64,000 nt of DNA, from the NCBI GenBank assembly GCA_002840095.1, contig PGZL01000002.1, forward strand, positions 279,872 to 343,871. The letters run 5' to 3'. The notes beneath the pieces are model-generated. The model was not told where the DNA came from. It saw only the letters and a program-made list of their open reading frames with translations, and made no database searches. The stretch is from Gammaproteobacteria bacterium HGW-Gammaproteobacteria-1 (GTDB taxonomy: Bacteria; Pseudomonadota; Gammaproteobacteria; Thiohalomonadales; Thiohalomonadaceae). A program made the translations under genes and the position numbers. Positions 3,343 to 17,684 of the stretch are shown piece by piece; position 1 is the first letter of the stretch; each line of letters opens with the position of its first letter.

Positions 3343-4618
3343 TGTCGATGTTTGTAGCCGCGGTCCCATCCTGATGGCACCACTCCTCCAGCGCCACCGC
3401 ATAGCGCGTGGCCATGTCGCGGCGCCGCTCCACCAGTTGTTGCGCCGCCGTGCCCAGCGCGGCGCGGTGTTCCGGCTGCGCCAGCAGCGCGGTGAATACC
3501 GTGCTCAACGCACGTACGTCCTCCACCTGCACGGCGCCGCCGTGTTCCAGCAGCAGCCGGCATTCGTCGGCGAAGTTGTCCATGTGGGGACCGAACACCA
3601 GGGCCTTGCCCAGGTGGGCGGCCTCCAGCACGTTCTGTCCGCCCCTGGGTACCAGTGACCCGCCCATGAACACCAGCTCCGCCCCGGCCATGAAGCCGGT
3701 CAGTTCGCCGAAGGTGTCGGCGAGGTAGACGCGGGTCTGCGCAGTGACGTCCTGGCCGCGGCTGCGCACGGCGATGTGCGGCGGCGGCAGGGCCAGGTCA
3801 CGCAGGATTTCCTGCACCCGGCGTGGGTGGCGCGGCACGATCACCAGCAGCCGGCCGCCGTGTTCCGCCTGCTGCCAGGCCTGCAGCAGCAGGGCCTCCT
3901 CGCCGTCGCGGGTGGAGGCGGCCAGCACGTAGGGGCGCGGCAGGGAAATGTTCGCGCTGGCGGCCTGGACATCGGCGCTGAATTTGATGTTGCCCACCAC
4001 CTGTACCCGTGCCGCCGCCGCACCGAGAGCAATGAAACCGGCACGGTCGGCCTCGGAGCGGGCCAGCACTGCATCGACCCGGCCCAGGGCGCAGCGGTAC
4101 TGGCGGCACAGCCAGCGCGGCGCGTTGCGGGTGCGCAGGGACAGGCGGCCGTTGACGATGATGAGCGGGATGGCGCGCGCCGCGCTGGCCGCGAACAGGT
4201 TGGGCCACAGTTCGGTTTCCATGATCAGGGCGCAGCGTGGCCGGTAGTGATCGAAAAAACGCCTTACCGCACCGCGCCAGTCCAGCGGCAGGAATACATG
4301 GGGCACGTCGGCGGGCAGGCGCCGGGCGGCGAGCGCGGCGCTGCTGGCGGTGGCGGTGGTCAGCAGCAGCGGCAGTTGCGGCTGGCGGGCGCGCAATGCG
4401 GCGATGAGGGGCAGGGCTGCGTTGAGTTCGCCCACCGAGGCGGCATGCAGCCAGACCGGTGACGGTGCTGCGGCGGTGCGGTAGAGGCCGCAGCGCTCGC
4501 GCAGGTAGCGCCAGGAGCGTTCGCGCAATGCCTGCCACAGGGTGTAGCCGAGCAGCAGCGGTGTGAGCAACCCCAGCAGCAGGCGGTAACGGGCGAGGGA
4601 GGCGTCGGCCGAAGTCAT
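3308..4618 (-). CDS. waaA: Kdo transferase (3-deoxy-D-manno-octulosonic acid transferase)
   Basis: 436-residue GT30 enzyme that transfers Kdo from CMP-Kdo to lipid IVA on the inner membrane. After an N-terminal membrane anchor (LLLGLLTPLLLGYTLW) come the family motifs WLHAASVGELNAA with the catalytic Glu, METELWPNLF, VNGRLSLR, VVGNIKF, ADTFGELTGFM and GGSLVPRGGQNVLEAA. The start at 4618 overlaps the stop of the acyltransferase upstream by one base (TGATG). The normal protein seems to end near 'EEWCHQDG'; the last dozen residues, including RRRDAEAQSR, are encoded by the palindromic repeat that follows, an acquired C-terminal tail. Confidence 0.94.
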   Translation of the reverse strand: MTSADASLARYRLLLGLLTPLLLGYTLWQALRERSWRYLRERCGLYRTAAAPSPVWLHAASVGELNAALPLIAALRARQPQLPLLLTTATASSAALAARRLPADVPHVFLPLDWRGAVRRFFDHYRPRCALIMETELWPNLFAASAARAIPLIIVNGRLSLRTRNAPRWLCRQYRCALGRVDAVLARSEADRAGFIALGAAAARVQVVGNIKFSADVQAASANISLPRPYVLAASTRDGEEALLLQAWQQAEHGGRLLVIVPRHPRRVQEILRDLALPPPHIAVRSRGQDVTAQTRVYLADTFGELTGFMAGAELVFMGGSLVPRGGQNVLEAAHLGKALVFGPHMDNFADECRLLLEHGGAVQVEDVRALSTVFTALLAQPEHRAALGTAAQQLVERRRDMATRYAVALEEWCHQDGTAATNIDTRRRDAEAQSR

Positions 4619-6853: not shown

Positions 6854-8166
6854 CACTTCAGCCAGGTGTTGATGTGATCCACGTCGGCCTCGGCCAGGAT
6901 CCCGGCGGCCTGCTTCAGGCGCAGGGTCGACAGGGCGTAGTCGTAGCGGGCCCGGGCATAGTCGCGCTGGGTGCGGAACAGCTCGCGCTGCGAATTGAGC
7001 ACTTCCACGGCGGTGCGGGTACCCACGTCGAAGCCGGCCTGGGTCGCTTCCAGGGCGGTCCTGGCGGACGACACCGCCTGGCGCCGGGCCTGCACCGTGC
7101 TGATGCCGGCGGTGACGCCGAGATAGGCGTCGCGGGTCTGGCGCACGGTGGAACGGCGGGTCTGCTCCATGCCTTCCTGGGCCTGGGTGTAGAGATGGGT
7201 CGCCTCACGGGTGCTGGCGCTCACGCCGCCGCCGGCGTAGAGCGGTACGTTGAGCTGCAGGCCGATGATGTTGCTGTTGCTTTCGCTGGCGGACACGGTG
7301 GCCGACTTGGTGGTGTCGGACCAGTTGTGGCTGGCGACGATGTCCAGGGTCGGATAGTGGCCGGCCTGGCGGCGGTTCATCTCCTCGCGCGCGACCTGGG
7401 TGGCGGCTTCGGCGGCGAGCAGTTGCAGGTTCTGTTGCAGTGCCGTTTCCACCCACTGATCGATGCTGGCCGGGTCGGGGCTTTGCAGCGGAATCTCGCC
7501 GGCCAGCGGGGTGATCGCGGCATGGTCGCGGCCGGTGATCTCGCGCAGCACTTCGCGGGCGTTTTGCAGCTGGTTCTGCGCCACGATCTCCTGCGCCACG
7601 GCGGCGTCGTAGCCGGCCTGGGCCTCGTGCACGTCGGTGATGGCGGACAGGCCGACCTCGAAGCGCTGCTGGGTCTGGCGCAACTGCTGGGCGATGGCGG
7701 TCTTTTCCGCCTGGGCGAAGCGCAGGTTGTCCTCGGCGGCGAGCAGATTGAAGTAGGTTTCGGCCACACGGACGATCAGGCCCTGGCGGGCGCTGCCGTA
7801 CTGGGCATCGGCCTGGGCGATGCCGGCGTCGGCCTGGCGCAGCTGCACATAGTAGTCGTGGTGATAGACCGCCTGGCGCAGGCTCAGGGCGTAGCTGGAG
7901 GTGTTGTAATCCTTGTCCAGGGCTACGGGCTTCTTGATCTCGACCTGGTTCCACTGTGTCTGCGCCGAGAAACTCACATTGGGCAGCAGCGCGGCACGGC
8001 TCTGCGGGCGCGCCTCGAGGGCGGCGCGGTGGCCGGCTTCGGCGGCGCGCAACTGCGGGTCGCTCTCCTGGGCCAGGCGATAGACGTCGCGCAGGTCTTC
8101 GGCCTGGGCGGCGGCGGTGCCGAGCGCCAGGGCCAGGGCGAGCATTCGTGCTACGGAGTTGGACAT
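6853..8166 (-). CDS. tolC: TolC-family outer membrane efflux protein
   Basis: 437-residue outer-membrane channel with a signal peptide ending near residue 22 (TAAAQA-ED). Two repeats of the OEP domain are visible, with LRDVYRLAQESDPQLRAAEA at the start and long alpha-helical hairpins containing YFNLLAAEDNLRFAQAEK and AYLGVTAGISTVQARRQAV, plus the GFDVGTRTAVEVLNSQREL turn found in E. coli TolC. It would link inner-membrane pumps or type I secretion to the outside. It follows pcm on the same strand by 66 bases, an arrangement common in gammaproteobacteria. No pump or adaptor gene is adjacent. Confidence 0.93.
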   Translation of the reverse strand: MSNSVARMLALALALGTAAAQAEDLRDVYRLAQESDPQLRAAEAGHRAALEARPQSRAALLPNVSFSAQTQWNQVEIKKPVALDKDYNTSSYALSLRQAVYHHDYYVQLRQADAGIAQADAQYGSARQGLIVRVAETYFNLLAAEDNLRFAQAEKTAIAQQLRQTQQRFEVGLSAITDVHEAQAGYDAAVAQEIVAQNQLQNAREVLREITGRDHAAITPLAGEIPLQSPDPASIDQWVETALQQNLQLLAAEAATQVAREEMNRRQAGHYPTLDIVASHNWSDTTKSATVSASESNSNIIGLQLNVPLYAGGGVSASTREATHLYTQAQEGMEQTRRSTVRQTRDAYLGVTAGISTVQARRQAVSSARTALEATQAGFDVGTRTAVEVLNSQRELFRTQRDYARARYDYALSTLRLKQAAGILAEADVDHINTWLK

Positions 8167-9074: not shown

Positions 9075-9082
9075 TAGCCCTT

Positions 9083-9161
9083 ACTGCTAGGGGTGCCCGA
9101 CTGCCGGGCTGAGACAGACCCTTGGAACCTGATCCGGGTCGTGCCGGCGTAGGGAAGCGGT
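9083..9161 (+). promoter_or_regulatory. TPP riboswitch (THI element)
   Basis: The conserved THI-box blocks appear in order: TAGGGGTGCCCG, GGGCTGAGACAGACCC, TTGGAACCTGATCCGGGT and TGCCGGCGTAGGGAAG. The terminal helix can form between ACTGCT (9083) and AGCGGT (to 9161). It binds thiamin pyrophosphate and in proteobacteria usually masks translation start or triggers termination. It sits 53 bases before the thiC ATG. The short spacing without an obvious T-run suggests translational control. Confidence 0.95.
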
Positions 9162-9181
9162 GCGCCTGCGCTCCTTCCTGA

Positions 9182-11659: not shown

Positions 11660-12328
11660 CTATTTTTCGAACACCAGCCCGTCCGGCACGGCGCCCAGCT
11701 CGATCAGCGCCGCCGTGATGGAATTGACGAAGGGCGGCGGGCCGCAGACGTAGAAATGCCGGCTGAAGTCGTCGATCTGGCGGCGCAGGAAGTCGATGTC
11801 GATGCGGCCGCCGCCGCGGCAGTTGCAGTCGGTTTCGCGGGTGCACAGCAGCAGACAGCGTTCCCCCAGGTAGTGGTGCAGTTCCTGGCCGCAAATGATG
11901 TCGGCGGGGGTCTTGTTGCTGAAAATCAGGCTGTGCCCTTCCAGCTTACCCTCGGCCGCGAGCATACGCAGGATGGCCATGAACGGGGTGATGCCGGCGC
12001 CGGCGGCGATGAATGTGCCCGGCCCCTGGTAGTGGATGGCGCCGAAGGGCTCCGACATCAGCACCCTGGCGCCCGGCTTGAGGGCGTGCAGTTTTTCGGT
12101 CACGCCGTGGTGCTCCGGGTACCCCTTGATGGTGAATTCCAGCACCCCGTCCCCGGCCAGGGAGGTGGGGGTGAAGGGATGGCCCTGGCTGCGCCATTGC
12201 GGTTCGTCGATGGCCAGCTCCACGCCCTGGCCGGGGACGAAGTCGAAGCCGTCCGGACGCGTGAAGATGAAGCGCTTGACGTCGTGGGTGACGAACTCGC
12301 TCAGCAGCAGGGTGACCGTGTGCTCCAT
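11660..12328 (-). CDS. FAD/NAD(P)-binding ferredoxin reductase-like oxidoreductase
   Basis: 222-residue flavoprotein reductase of the ferredoxin-NADP+ reductase superfamily. It has the FAD-binding PGQGVELAIDE and HPFTPTS segments in place of the usual RxYS, the nucleotide-binding GAGITPFMAILR, and the C-terminal YVCGPPPFVNSI signature. There is no fused iron-sulfur or globin domain, though C-x-C (TDCNCRGG) lies at about residue 168. It may pass electrons from NAD(P)H to a separate partner. It is followed closely by no same-strand gene and preceded 8 bases away by a small membrane protein gene, likely an operon. Confidence 0.85.
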   Translation of the reverse strand: MEHTVTLLLSEFVTHDVKRFIFTRPDGFDFVPGQGVELAIDEPQWRSQGHPFTPTSLAGDGVLEFTIKGYPEHHGVTEKLHALKPGARVLMSEPFGAIHYQGPGTFIAAGAGITPFMAILRMLAAEGKLEGHSLIFSNKTPADIICGQELHHYLGERCLLLCTRETDCNCRGGGRIDIDFLRRQIDDFSRHFYVCGPPPFVNSITAALIELGAVPDGLVFEK

Positions 12329-14841: not shown

Positions 14842-14877
14842 GAAAACGAAGAACCCCGCCAGGGGCGGGGTTCTTCG
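14842..14877 (-). terminator. Rho-independent terminator of the cold-shock gene
   Basis: Thirteen-base arms CGAAGAACCCCGC / GCGGGGTTCTTCG enclose CAGGG. On the minus strand the stem is followed by GTTTTCG, and the site lies 25 bases after the cold-shock stop codon. Confidence 0.75.
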
Positions 14878-14901
14878 GTCAGAACGTGAAACGGTTCTGG
14901 C

Positions 14902-15105
14902 TTACTGGGCGACGACGTTGCTCGCCTGCGGACCCTTGGGGCCGTTCTGCAGGTCGAAGGAGACCTTCTGGCCTTCGGCCAGGGTCTTGAAGCCGGAGCC
15001 AGAGATGGCGGAGAAGTGGACGAACACGTCCGCGCCGCCGTTATCCTGGGTGATGAAGCCGAAACCCTTGGACTCGTTGAACCATTTCACAGTGCCGGTA
15101 GCCAT
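14902..15105 (-). CDS. Cold-shock domain protein (CspA family)
   Basis: 67-residue single cold-shock domain, the normal size. The protein has both nucleic-acid binding motifs, GFGFI (RNP1, in [12 protein letters not shown]) and VFVHFSAI (RNP2), on a KWFNESKG start. It is an RNA/ssDNA chaperone of the cytosol; no cold-induction can be deduced from the coding part. It has a leader of about 118 nt from a well-formed promoter, as is usual for csp genes, and its own terminator. Confidence 0.96.
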
Positions 15106-15585
15106 TACTCTTTACCTCAAAAACAATTAATTAGGGTGGTGCGTGCAGGTCATGAAATGAGGGTGTTCGGGAGGTATCACAGAGGAGAACGACCTAAACT
15201 ACCACTGCCACAATCTGCAGCTGCGCAGCACTATACCCCCTTCTTTCCGCGAACGGCAAGAAATTCTTGAGGCAACTTCATGGAAACATTGGGGAAGGTG
15301 GGGCGAGTGTGTTAGCCTGTCGCGACAGTTTGCGCGGGGCCCATTATTCTTCATGTCCGCGCACTCCTTCGGGGCGAAGTCTGCCCCGCCCACTGCCGTC
15401 ATGGCTGTTGCGGCAGGTGCCCGCATAGGTTCCACCGCTAACCATTTGATTATAAAGACAGGGGCTCTGGTGCTTAGCGGCCGGAGCGCTCCCGCCGTGA
15501 CGTTCCCTCTGTCCCGGATTTTTCGCGGACTACAGCCGCTCGCCGAGCCGTGGCCCGTGTGCACCACTTAACCTGGAGGCTACCC
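15106..15585. other. 480-base gene-free stretch between csp and RRM genes
   Basis: It holds the csp leader and promoter on the left and the upstream region of the divergent RRM gene on the right. At 15317-15328 there is a perfect 12-bp palindrome, CTGTCGCGACAG, of unknown role. TATAAA at about 15451 could serve as a -10 for the RRM gene. No convincing open frame is present. Confidence 0.5.
15230..15259 (-). promoter_or_regulatory. Sigma-70-type promoter of the cold-shock gene
   Basis: On the minus strand TTGCCG (15259-15254), an 18-base spacer and TATAGT (15235-15230) make a strong promoter. Initiation near 15223 would give an untranslated leader of about 118 nt before the csp ATG. Confidence 0.6.
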
Positions 15586-15868: not shown

Positions 15869-16258
15869 TCAGTCGGCGTTTCCGTCCGGAAACGCCGATG
15901 CTGTTTTTCCTTCCCCTTCCAGCACCGCCAGAAATCTTTCCCGCGCCGTTGCCAGTGCCTGATGCGCCTGGGCCATGGCCTCCGCCGTGCCGTCCGACCG
16001 TTCCAGCCAATAGAGGCTGCTGCGGTGGTAATCCTCGAATGCCCGCCCGATGGCCTGGATGTCCGGTACCTGCCGCGTGGCCGCGGGCGGCGGCGCGGCG
16101 GTGCCGTCCGCCAGGACGCTGACCGGCGTGGAGCGCGGCACCATGCGCTGGGTACCGCTTTCGGTGCTGCGCGCCAGCAGGGGATTGAGCTTTTCGAAGG
16201 TCTCCCCCTGCCACTGGAAGCGCTGTCCCGGGCGGAGCTGGTGAAATTTCATTTCCAT
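15869..16258 (-). CDS. Conserved hypothetical protein
   Basis: 129 residues beginning MEMKFHQLRPGQRFQWQGETFEKLNP, a beta-rich opening seen in small bacterial proteins of unknown role, then a proline/alanine linker (GTAAPPPAATRQVP) and a helical half (AFEDYHRSSLYWLERSDGTAEAMAQA). No catalytic residues are apparent. Its last codons lie inside the terminator hairpin of the convergent RRM gene. An ATG two codons later (16252) is an alternative start. I do not recognise the function. Confidence 0.65.
   Translation of the reverse strand: MEMKFHQLRPGQRFQWQGETFEKLNPLLARSTESGTQRMVPRSTPVSVLADGTAAPPPAATRQVPDIQAIGRAFEDYHRSSLYWLERSDGTAEAMAQAHQALATARERFLAVLEGEGKTASAFPDGNAD
15873..15908 (+). terminator. 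Rho-independent terminator of the RRM gene
   Basis: TCGGCGTTTCCG and CGGAAACGCCGA form 12-bp arms (15873-15898) followed by a T-rich tail ending in TTTTT. The hairpin overlaps the coding 3' end of the opposing hypothetical gene. Confidence 0.7.
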
Positions 16259-16325
16259 GGTGTTTTCCGTGCGGTGCGGTGAGCGGGTTGTGGCGGTATG
16301 CTGTGCCCAGTTCGGAGGATTAGGC

Positions 16326-17174
16326 ATGGACAGGATGCGAATCAAACTGGCGGTCACCCTGACCGTCCTGCTGCTGCTGGCCGTCGCGGCGAGCGGCCTG
16401 GCCGATCGGGCAGGCTACGAGTATACCGAGCGCGGCTTCAAGCGGGCACTGGTGACCTTCGCCGTGGCGCGCGGCCTGAATGCCGTGATCTCCGTCGCCC
16501 AGGGCACGGAGATCGCCCTGGAACCGGCAGGCGTAGGCGTCAATTTCACCCCCGGCCAGGTGCTCGACCCGGTCAATGATCTGGTGGAGCAGTTTTCCAC
16601 GGTGATGCTGGCCAGTGCCACCGTGCTCGGCCTGCAGCGCCTGTTGCTGGAGCTGTTCGCCTCGAACGGATACACGGCATTTCTGGGCGTGGTCTGGCTG
16701 GGCGCCCTGCTGTTGCTCTGGCTGCCGCGGGCCGCGGAGTGGCGCACCCTGCTGCTGCGTACGGCGGTGGTGCTGCTGGTGCTGCGGTTCTCCGTGCCGC
16801 TGCTGGCCCTGACCGGGGAGCTGTTTTACGACGCCTTTCTGGAGGACCGCTATGCCGCCTCGTCGCAGCGCATCGTGCAGGTCACGGTGGACATCGGGCA
16901 AATCAACGAGGGCGCGGAACAGGCGGCGCCGGCGGCGGAGGACGTCGGCCTGGTGGAGCGGGCACGGCGTCTCTACCAGTCGGCGGTGTCCGCCGTGGAC
17001 GTGGGCAACTATCTGCAACGTTACGAGCGGGCCGCCGCCAATGTGAGCGAGCAGGTGGTGAATCTGATCGTGGTGTTTCTGGTGCAGACGGTGCTGCTGC
17101 CGTTGCTGTTTCTCTGGGGGTTGTGGCACGGCCTGCGTCGTCTGTGGCGCCTGCCCGGTGGAGAGGTCCGCTAA
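16326..17174 (+). CDS. Inner-membrane protein of unknown function
   Basis: 282-residue protein. Residues 6-24 form a first hydrophobic helix (LAVTLTVLLLLAVAASGLA), followed by a roughly 90-residue domain (YTERGFKRALVTFAVARGLNA), two hydrophobic hairpins at about 120-162 (LGVVWLGALLLLWLP and TLLLRTAVVLLVLRFSVPLL) and a last helix near 250-272 (VVFLVQTVLLPLLFLWGL). A soluble segment between them (INEGAEQAAPAAEDVGLVERA) is probably periplasmic. The pattern is that of a conserved unknown membrane protein of gammaproteobacteria. The ATG at 16326 follows GGAGGAT. Confidence 0.7.
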   Translation: MDRMRIKLAVTLTVLLLLAVAASGLADRAGYEYTERGFKRALVTFAVARGLNAVISVAQGTEIALEPAGVGVNFTPGQVLDPVNDLVEQFSTVMLASATVLGLQRLLLELFASNGYTAFLGVVWLGALLLLWLPRAAEWRTLLLRTAVVLLVLRFSVPLLALTGELFYDAFLEDRYAASSQRIVQVTVDIGQINEGAEQAAPAAEDVGLVERARRLYQSAVSAVDVGNYLQRYERAAANVSEQVVNLIVVFLVQTVLLPLLFLWGLWHGLRRLWRLPGGEVR

Positions 17175-17213
17175 CCCCCTTCCAGGCCGGGTGTATGTCA
17201 AATTTGGCATTGT

Positions 17214-17323
17214 GTCATGGGGCGTATGACGAATGTGGCGGTAAGATGCCGCCGCCCGGTCCCCAGACTCCTCCTGCCGTGTCGGCGCTTCTTCCGTAAG
17301 AACAACATGTTATGTGTGTTCTT
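17214..17323. promoter_or_regulatory. Candidate activator sites upstream of the small-RNA promoter
   Basis: Two inverted repeats lie in the gene-free region: GTCAT-N7-ATGAC at 17214-17230 and AAGAACAACAT...ATGTGTGTTCTT with matching outer arms AAGAAC/GTTCTT at 17298-17323. They are centred about 145 and 56 bases ahead of the inferred start, positions that could serve an enhancer-binding protein. This is inference from symmetry and spacing alone. Confidence 0.35.
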
Positions 17324-17340
17324 GGCGGTCACCCCGAAGT

Positions 17341-17356
17341 TGGTACGGTGTGTGCA
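17341..17356 (+). promoter_or_regulatory. Sigma-54-type (-24/-12) promoter
   Basis: TGGTACGGTGTGTGCA matches the RpoN consensus TGGCACG-N4-TTGCA at all but two positions, with the invariant GG (17342-17343) and GC (17354-17355) separated by exactly 10 bases. The predicted start is about 17367. No sigma-70 -35 element stands at a proper distance from the neighbouring TATAAC. Confidence 0.55.
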
Positions 17357-17366
17357 ATATATAACA

Positions 17367-17473
17367 TCGTAATGACTCCTCCAGGGGATGACAGGCGTGT
17401 GGTGGGACCTCCTGTGGTTTTAGTTATGTCATCCCCTATTTTCTAAGCCCAGGGCCTCCTGGGCTTTTTTTTT
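17367..17473 (+). ncRNA. Candidate small RNA with three anti-Shine-Dalgarno motifs
   Basis: A non-coding transcript of about 105 nt is predicted. It has a single-stranded ACTCCTCC near the 5' end, an 11-bp stem AGGGGATGACA / TGTCATCCCCT (17383-17393 with 17427-17437) whose interior carries ACCTCCTG, and an intrinsic terminator AGCCCAGG-GCCT-CCTGGGCT followed by nine T (17446-17473) whose loop again exposes CCTCC. Repeated CCUCC motifs are characteristic of trans-acting RNAs that block ribosome binding sites. It sits in a 510-base gene-free stretch upstream of recQ behind a sigma-54-like promoter. No known family is recognised. Confidence 0.6.
17446..17473 (+). terminator. Strong intrinsic terminator
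   Basis: Eight-bp arms AGCCCAGG/CCTGGGCT with a 4-nt loop, followed by TTTTTTTTT. It ends the putative small RNA and insulates recQ, which starts 210 bases further on. Between 17474 and 17684 I see no gene. Confidence 0.85.
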
Positions 17474-17684
17474 GTCCACGCGAATGTCGCGAACTCTCGC
17501 CAGGCACGCCAAGACGGAAGGAAACATGGTTTTCTTGACGCCCTTGCGGCCTGGCGGGAGAAACCATGGGACGGTCTGAGGTTTGGGGCTGGCGTAGGCC
17601 TCGGGTGGTCGCGGGCGGCACCAGCCTATGTTCCGGTGGTAACATCTGCGCTCTGTGTTTTCCATCCGTAACCCTGTGAGAGGC

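Follow-up and report, generated by a model that had tools for sequence, protein, structure and literature searches.

The window analysed here, the whole 64,000-nucleotide stretch of DNA, hosts a predicted small RNA gene in the interval between a membrane-protein gene and recQ. The features of this interval are collected in Table 1. The upstream gene (16257-17174, plus strand) encodes a 305-aa membrane protein that is conserved in the genus and has no Pfam match. Elsewhere in the window we observed a TPP riboswitch (9079-9172, plus strand) and a cold-shock gene preceded by its cspA-type thermoregulator 5' leader (14846-15225, minus strand).

Table 1. Coordinates of the predicted small RNA gene and its putative control elements in the window
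Feature	Position	Strand	Remarks
Candidate activator palindrome 1, TGTCAAATTTGGCA	17196-17209		Kept in all four genomes
Candidate activator palindrome 2, TGACGAATGTGGCG	17227-17240		31 bp from palindrome 1; ends 99 bp before the box
IHF-like core CAANNNNTTR	17303-17312		Same offset in four genomes, surrounding DNA diverged
Putative sigma-54 promoter box, TTGGTACGGTGTGTGCA	17340-17356	+	-24 GG 17342-17343, N10, -12 GC 17354-17355
Predicted small RNA, about 108 nt	17366-17473	+	Start placed by the box, end by the terminator
Seed AUGACUCCUCC, predicted single-stranded	17372-17382	+	Contains the first CCUCC, 17378-17382
Main hairpin	17383-17437	+	11-bp perfect stem (17383-17393/17427-17437); the second CCUCC sits in a weak hairpin inside it
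Intrinsic terminator	17445-17473	+	9-bp hairpin (17445-17466), then a T run

A conserved, predicted small RNA gene with a sigma-54-type box

The first-pass annotation of this DNA had proposed a sigma-54-controlled small RNA here, and most of its elements hold up. The box does have the exact GG-N10-GC spacing; it differs from the consensus YTGGYRYRNNNNTTGCW at a single position and ranks second among all window positions with a simple sigma-54 matrix. By itself the box is weak proof, since matches with at most two mismatches are common in this GC-rich DNA (88 were found in the window, 55 are expected). The predicted transcript start, at about 17366, is placed from the box. No sigma-70-type promoter was found at this stretch. 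The intrinsic terminator is also present, and it carries a long U tail.

Comparison with related genomes lends the gene good support. The stretch from box to terminator is 92-94% identical in three of the four other genomes of the genus, always with the same membrane-protein gene on one side and recQ on the other, and its flanks have diverged; conservation begins exactly at the box and stops at the terminator. In the remaining genome, G004, the assembly is 84% complete and recQ sits at the end of a contig. One of the genus records is a MAG labelled Thiohalomonas denitrificans. The fraction of columns that are invariant in the four genomes is 0.95 for the box with five flanking bases and 0.90 over the first 62 nt of the RNA, as against 0.65 at fourfold sites of recQ and 0.03-0.06 in the DNA that flanks and separates the upstream sites. 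Both box and RNA are conserved in three other species, and the -24/-12 box is present in every relative that keeps the hairpins, a pairing whose failure the annotation had named as evidence against it. With the box, the candidate upstream activator sites and RpoN all found in this genome, the locus has the elements looked for in a sigma-54-dependent sRNA gene. From these comparisons, 17366-17473 is very probably a real sRNA gene that would be transcribed, and its expression is very likely to depend on sigma-54.

Could the conserved stretch encode a short protein instead, or be a leader of recQ? An open frame of 24 codons, MTPPGDDRRVVGPPVVL..., does start at ATG 17372, and recQ lies downstream in the same direction. 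However, this ATG has no Shine-Dalgarno sequence and is GTG in G002, and in the relatives the reading frame is shifted at the 3' end and continues across the terminator, with no synonymous drift. The missing ribosome-binding site, the GTG, the altered 3' frame and the run through the terminator make a peptide unlikely, and the RNA is cut off from recQ by a strong terminator; we consider the coding and leader readings very improbable. A reading of the minus strand, with a Shine-Dalgarno sequence and the peptide MxxIAHTVPT, was rejected as well: its conservation stops at the promoter, and the minus strand showed no terminator.

The sRNA appears confined to the genus. A covariance model searched against 20 family genomes (which are also the entire order sample) and 369 genomes of the class returned only terminator-like matches outside the genus. 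The sRNA is absent upstream of recQ in other genera, and had no match in the viral collection. The seed pattern TGACTCCTCCRGGG occurs in the family mostly in coding sequence or, on the other strand, in ribosome-binding sites. One of the terminator-like matches, in G009 (L016), proved to be a CsrB-like RNA with a GacA-type box. This CsrB/RsmZ-like RNA (L016:1430-1597; G009:C41, about 11850-12015) has GGA hairpin loops, GGCCAGGATGGCC and GGTATGGACTACC, is preceded by the GacA-type box TGTAGGATTTCTCCTACA and has no Rfam match at E <1. It has TGACTCCTCCAGGG in common with the 5' end of the window RNA, probably by chance.

The predicted fold of the sRNA is more stable than those of all 200 shuffled sequences (z -3.25). 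The four RNAs are predicted to fold alike, with a free 17-nt 5' end, a stem of 11-13 bp around a weak G-U-rich hairpin, and the terminator. The perfect 11-bp stem reported earlier is present, beginning 17 nt after the predicted start. Across the 29 pairs of the four RNAs we found no two-sided change, and in the main hairpin one G-U variant and one lost inner pair; covariation is therefore uninformative for sequences that are so nearly identical.

Three CCTCC motifs in open or loop positions had been described. The sequence occurs 160 times per 128 kb of strand in the window, so that about 0.13 copies are expected in 108 nt, and there are indeed three, but they differ in standing. The first is conserved and predicted single-stranded: unpaired probabilities are mostly >0.8 over the seed, exceed 0.88 at its CCUCC in all four RNAs, and reach about 0.9-1.0 for the 5' UCCUCC. 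The second (17408-17412) is conserved too but only partly open, as within the hairpin sequence ACCUCCU the ACC is predicted to be paired and the UCCU free. The third (17455-17459), in the terminator loop, is found in this genome only and is CCACC in the three relatives.

Paired upstream sites and a candidate activator

The two inverted repeats upstream, previously suggested to bind an activator, are confirmed, and four genomes share their arrangement as a pair. They follow the consensus TGYCAN4TGRCR, with half of the columns invariant, compared with 3-6% in adjoining sequence. Their 31-bp spacing and the 99 bp to the box are identical in all four genomes despite the divergence of the intervening bases. 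The five genus genomes contain no further instance of a degenerate pattern for the pair. Paired upstream sites, an IHF-like core and a -24/-12 box are typically arranged in this way at sigma-54 promoters that have an enhancer, although here the IHF-like core is weak evidence because the WAT part of the IHF consensus is missing.

Which protein might read these sites? The genome encodes, in addition to RpoN, 14 clear enhancer-binding proteins and some weak matches. One of them, which we call the L124-type protein (G000:C31), has a PAS_4 domain, a sigma-54 AAA+ domain and a Fis HTH according to Pfam, together with the cysteine motif Cys-x10-Cys-x6-Cys (CYEVSH...C...C; spacings 11 and 7). PAS, AAA+ and Fis domains with a triple-cysteine motif are the features of a FisR-type activator. 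FisR has the same domain order, and the cysteine spacing presumably matches that of this sulfane-sulfur sensor. A palindrome lies just upstream of the L124-type gene in this genome.

We scanned activator loci with a site matrix built solely from the eight sites upstream of the sRNA. With a cut-off for pairs (score >=20) that was set after the scores were seen, paired sites were found at 9 of 13 L124-type loci across the family, at none of 12 FisR/sqr-type loci, at 1 of 318 control tiles and, within this genome, at none of 12 other activator loci. The corresponding Fisher p-values (6e-6 and 6e-14) overstate independence, because the 13 L124-type loci are related to each other. At the L124-type locus of G011 one site is identical to window 17196-17209; in this genome only one of the two L124-type palindromes is good, the other being weak. 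As a matrix derived from the sRNA finds pairs at L124-type loci and rarely elsewhere, the sRNA probably belongs to the regulon of this activator, and the comparison of sites makes control by it likely.

A different enhancer-binding protein, e.g. of the NtrC or FisR type, might drive the sRNA, with the likeness to L124-type sites a coincidence; the sharing of sites is read from sequence alone, and more than one Fis-HTH protein could recognize such palindromes. We find this quite improbable given that no comparable pair was seen at any of the 12 FisR-type loci or, in this genome, the 12 other activator loci. The FisR-like paralogue L123 is 48% identical to L124 and has different DNA sites; in this genome it adjoins an sqr-like gene, and L124-type genes adjoin cyd in several genomes. 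The sqr-like gene and the FisR-like activator that follows it occupy L135:3980-6767 (G000:C67); upstream of them, at 3895, is a weak sigma-54-like box, GTGGCATAAATATTGCC.

Control by the L124-type activator brings a second operon into the account. In G000, G001, G004 and G019 the L124-type gene is transcribed away from an operon of a small CydP-like ORF and cydA. The intervening DNA has a sigma-54 box, and the paired palindromes are found there also. In G000 the region (L134:6460-11049, contig C31) holds the activator with its FisR-like motif, the CydP-like ORF, cydA and cydB, with the box GTGGCATGGCCGTTGCT at 7961; the cydA and cydB identities are backed by Pfam. Cytochrome bd is apparently under sigma-54 control there, judging by this arrangement. 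In G002 and G003 the divergent neighbour of the L124-type gene resembles, in its N-terminus, an outer-membrane receptor gene.

Proposed action and signal

We propose that the locus produces, from its sigma-54 promoter, a trans-acting regulatory RNA of about 108 nt. Two dimers of the L124-type protein would occupy the two palindromes on one helix face and be looped from there to the promoter. Since the paired palindromes and a sigma-54 box also occur at the cyd operon, the sRNA and cytochrome bd may share their induction, with sulfide or sulfane sulfur a plausible trigger. Repression would then come about as the free 5' ACUCCUCC, and perhaps also the UCCU of the hairpin loop, pairs with Shine-Dalgarno regions of mRNAs; an RNA chaperone may take part. 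Conservation, box, paired sites and the site architecture common to the cyd-side regulator are the sequence-based parts of this account; transcription, binding, the signal, the chaperone, repression and targets are those that we infer. Taken as a whole, a sigma-54 sRNA with an L124-type activator that represses by Shine-Dalgarno pairing is favoured, with some reserve.

Repression in trans is plausible because ACUCCUCC is conserved and predicted to be single-stranded. Furthermore, UGACUCCUCC is complementary to GGAGGAGUCA, a strong Shine-Dalgarno sequence with its spacer. Target leads were sought as exact GGAGGAGTC matches at most 10 nt from an ATG, using pattern matches and the reading of single stretches. 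Three partly conserved genes came out. One, in G000 and G001, encodes a PAS-type chemoreceptor, where 11 bases would pair and the pairing extends into the start codon; the others encode a DsrE-like lipoprotein (G001 and G003) and an HbpS-like protein (G001-G003). Several other exact matches are inside genes, and no target site is conserved in all four genomes, so that these three are leads only. On balance we think it probable that the sRNA represses by Shine-Dalgarno pairing, with putative mRNA targets.

The same sigma-54 sRNA of the same regulon could serve mainly as a protein decoy, or titrate ribosomes or Shine-Dalgarno sequences in general through its anti-Shine-Dalgarno motifs. The CCUCC motifs mimic the 3' end of 16S rRNA, and the similarly built RF02278 RNAs were discovered through their toxicity when cloned in E. 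coli (PMC4603805). Yet only one CCUCC is fully open, and the conserved 5' end extends beyond this core (AUGACUCCUCC), as it would for a specific seed, which leaves decoy or titration an unlikely main function. A decoy for CsrA of the CsrB/RsmZ type was rejected, as both GGA sequences of the sRNA are in predicted stems and not in loops.

Returning to repression by pairing, what might induce the RNA? In other bacteria sulfide induces cytochrome bd, an oxidase that is itself refractory to sulfide (PMC7315123; see also PMC4815019). This response, together with the FisR-like cysteine motif, makes a sulfur signal plausible, and we tentatively suggest that the sRNA may be sulfur-responsive; oxygen or NO are alternative signals. 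More speculatively still, a persulfide-sensing activator might switch on both cytochrome bd and the anti-Shine-Dalgarno RNA via the same paired sites, the RNA silencing competing respiratory, chemotaxis or sulfur-handling genes while the cell respires in the presence of sulfide. The literature searched contained no sigma-54-driven sRNA that responds to sulfide or sulfane sulfur. To our knowledge none has been described.

Comparison with known small RNAs

Only a small number of sRNAs are known to depend on sigma-54, and these have revealed the regulatory circuits in which their activators work. The present sRNA comes with a named candidate activator and defined putative sites, and an operon for a sulfide-resistant oxidase is likely to be co-regulated with it; the named relative of this lineage belongs to Thiohalomonadales. 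The resulting prediction is concrete: such cells might link a change of terminal oxidase to post-transcriptional repression.

The sigma-54-dependent sRNAs Qrr, GlmY, CrcZ and NrsZ are characterized by a -24/-12 box and upstream activator sites, and the window gene resembles these, and NfiS, in that arrangement. The expression of NfiS is rpoN-dependent (PMC6606865). The likeness does not extend to sequence, where no Rfam match relates the window RNA to any of them, and the candidate activator here is a different one.

In build the sRNA resembles the Betaproteobacteria toxic small RNA (RF02278), which also has a free 5' UCCUCC, a hairpin loop of CCUCC type and then a terminator. However, it scores 23.6 bits with that model against a gathering threshold of 50, mostly through the terminator, and differs in size and sequence. 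Alpha-r14/NfeR1 (RF02344) is similar in its redundant anti-Shine-Dalgarno motifs and in its link to an enhancer-binding protein (NtrC for NfeR1). The NfeR1 motifs silence specific mRNAs, but they differ in that CCUCCUCCC is present in every one of the three NfeR1 hairpins, and NfeR1 itself is under NtrC repression and shows no sigma-54 signature (PMC10746234); the window sRNA has two hairpins and no CCUCCUCCC, and scores 13.0 bits against a gathering threshold of 58.8. The earlier impression that no known family could be recognized is borne out, with no Rfam match at the gathering or at a permissive threshold. The sRNA is a new family, and its regulator partner is unusual.
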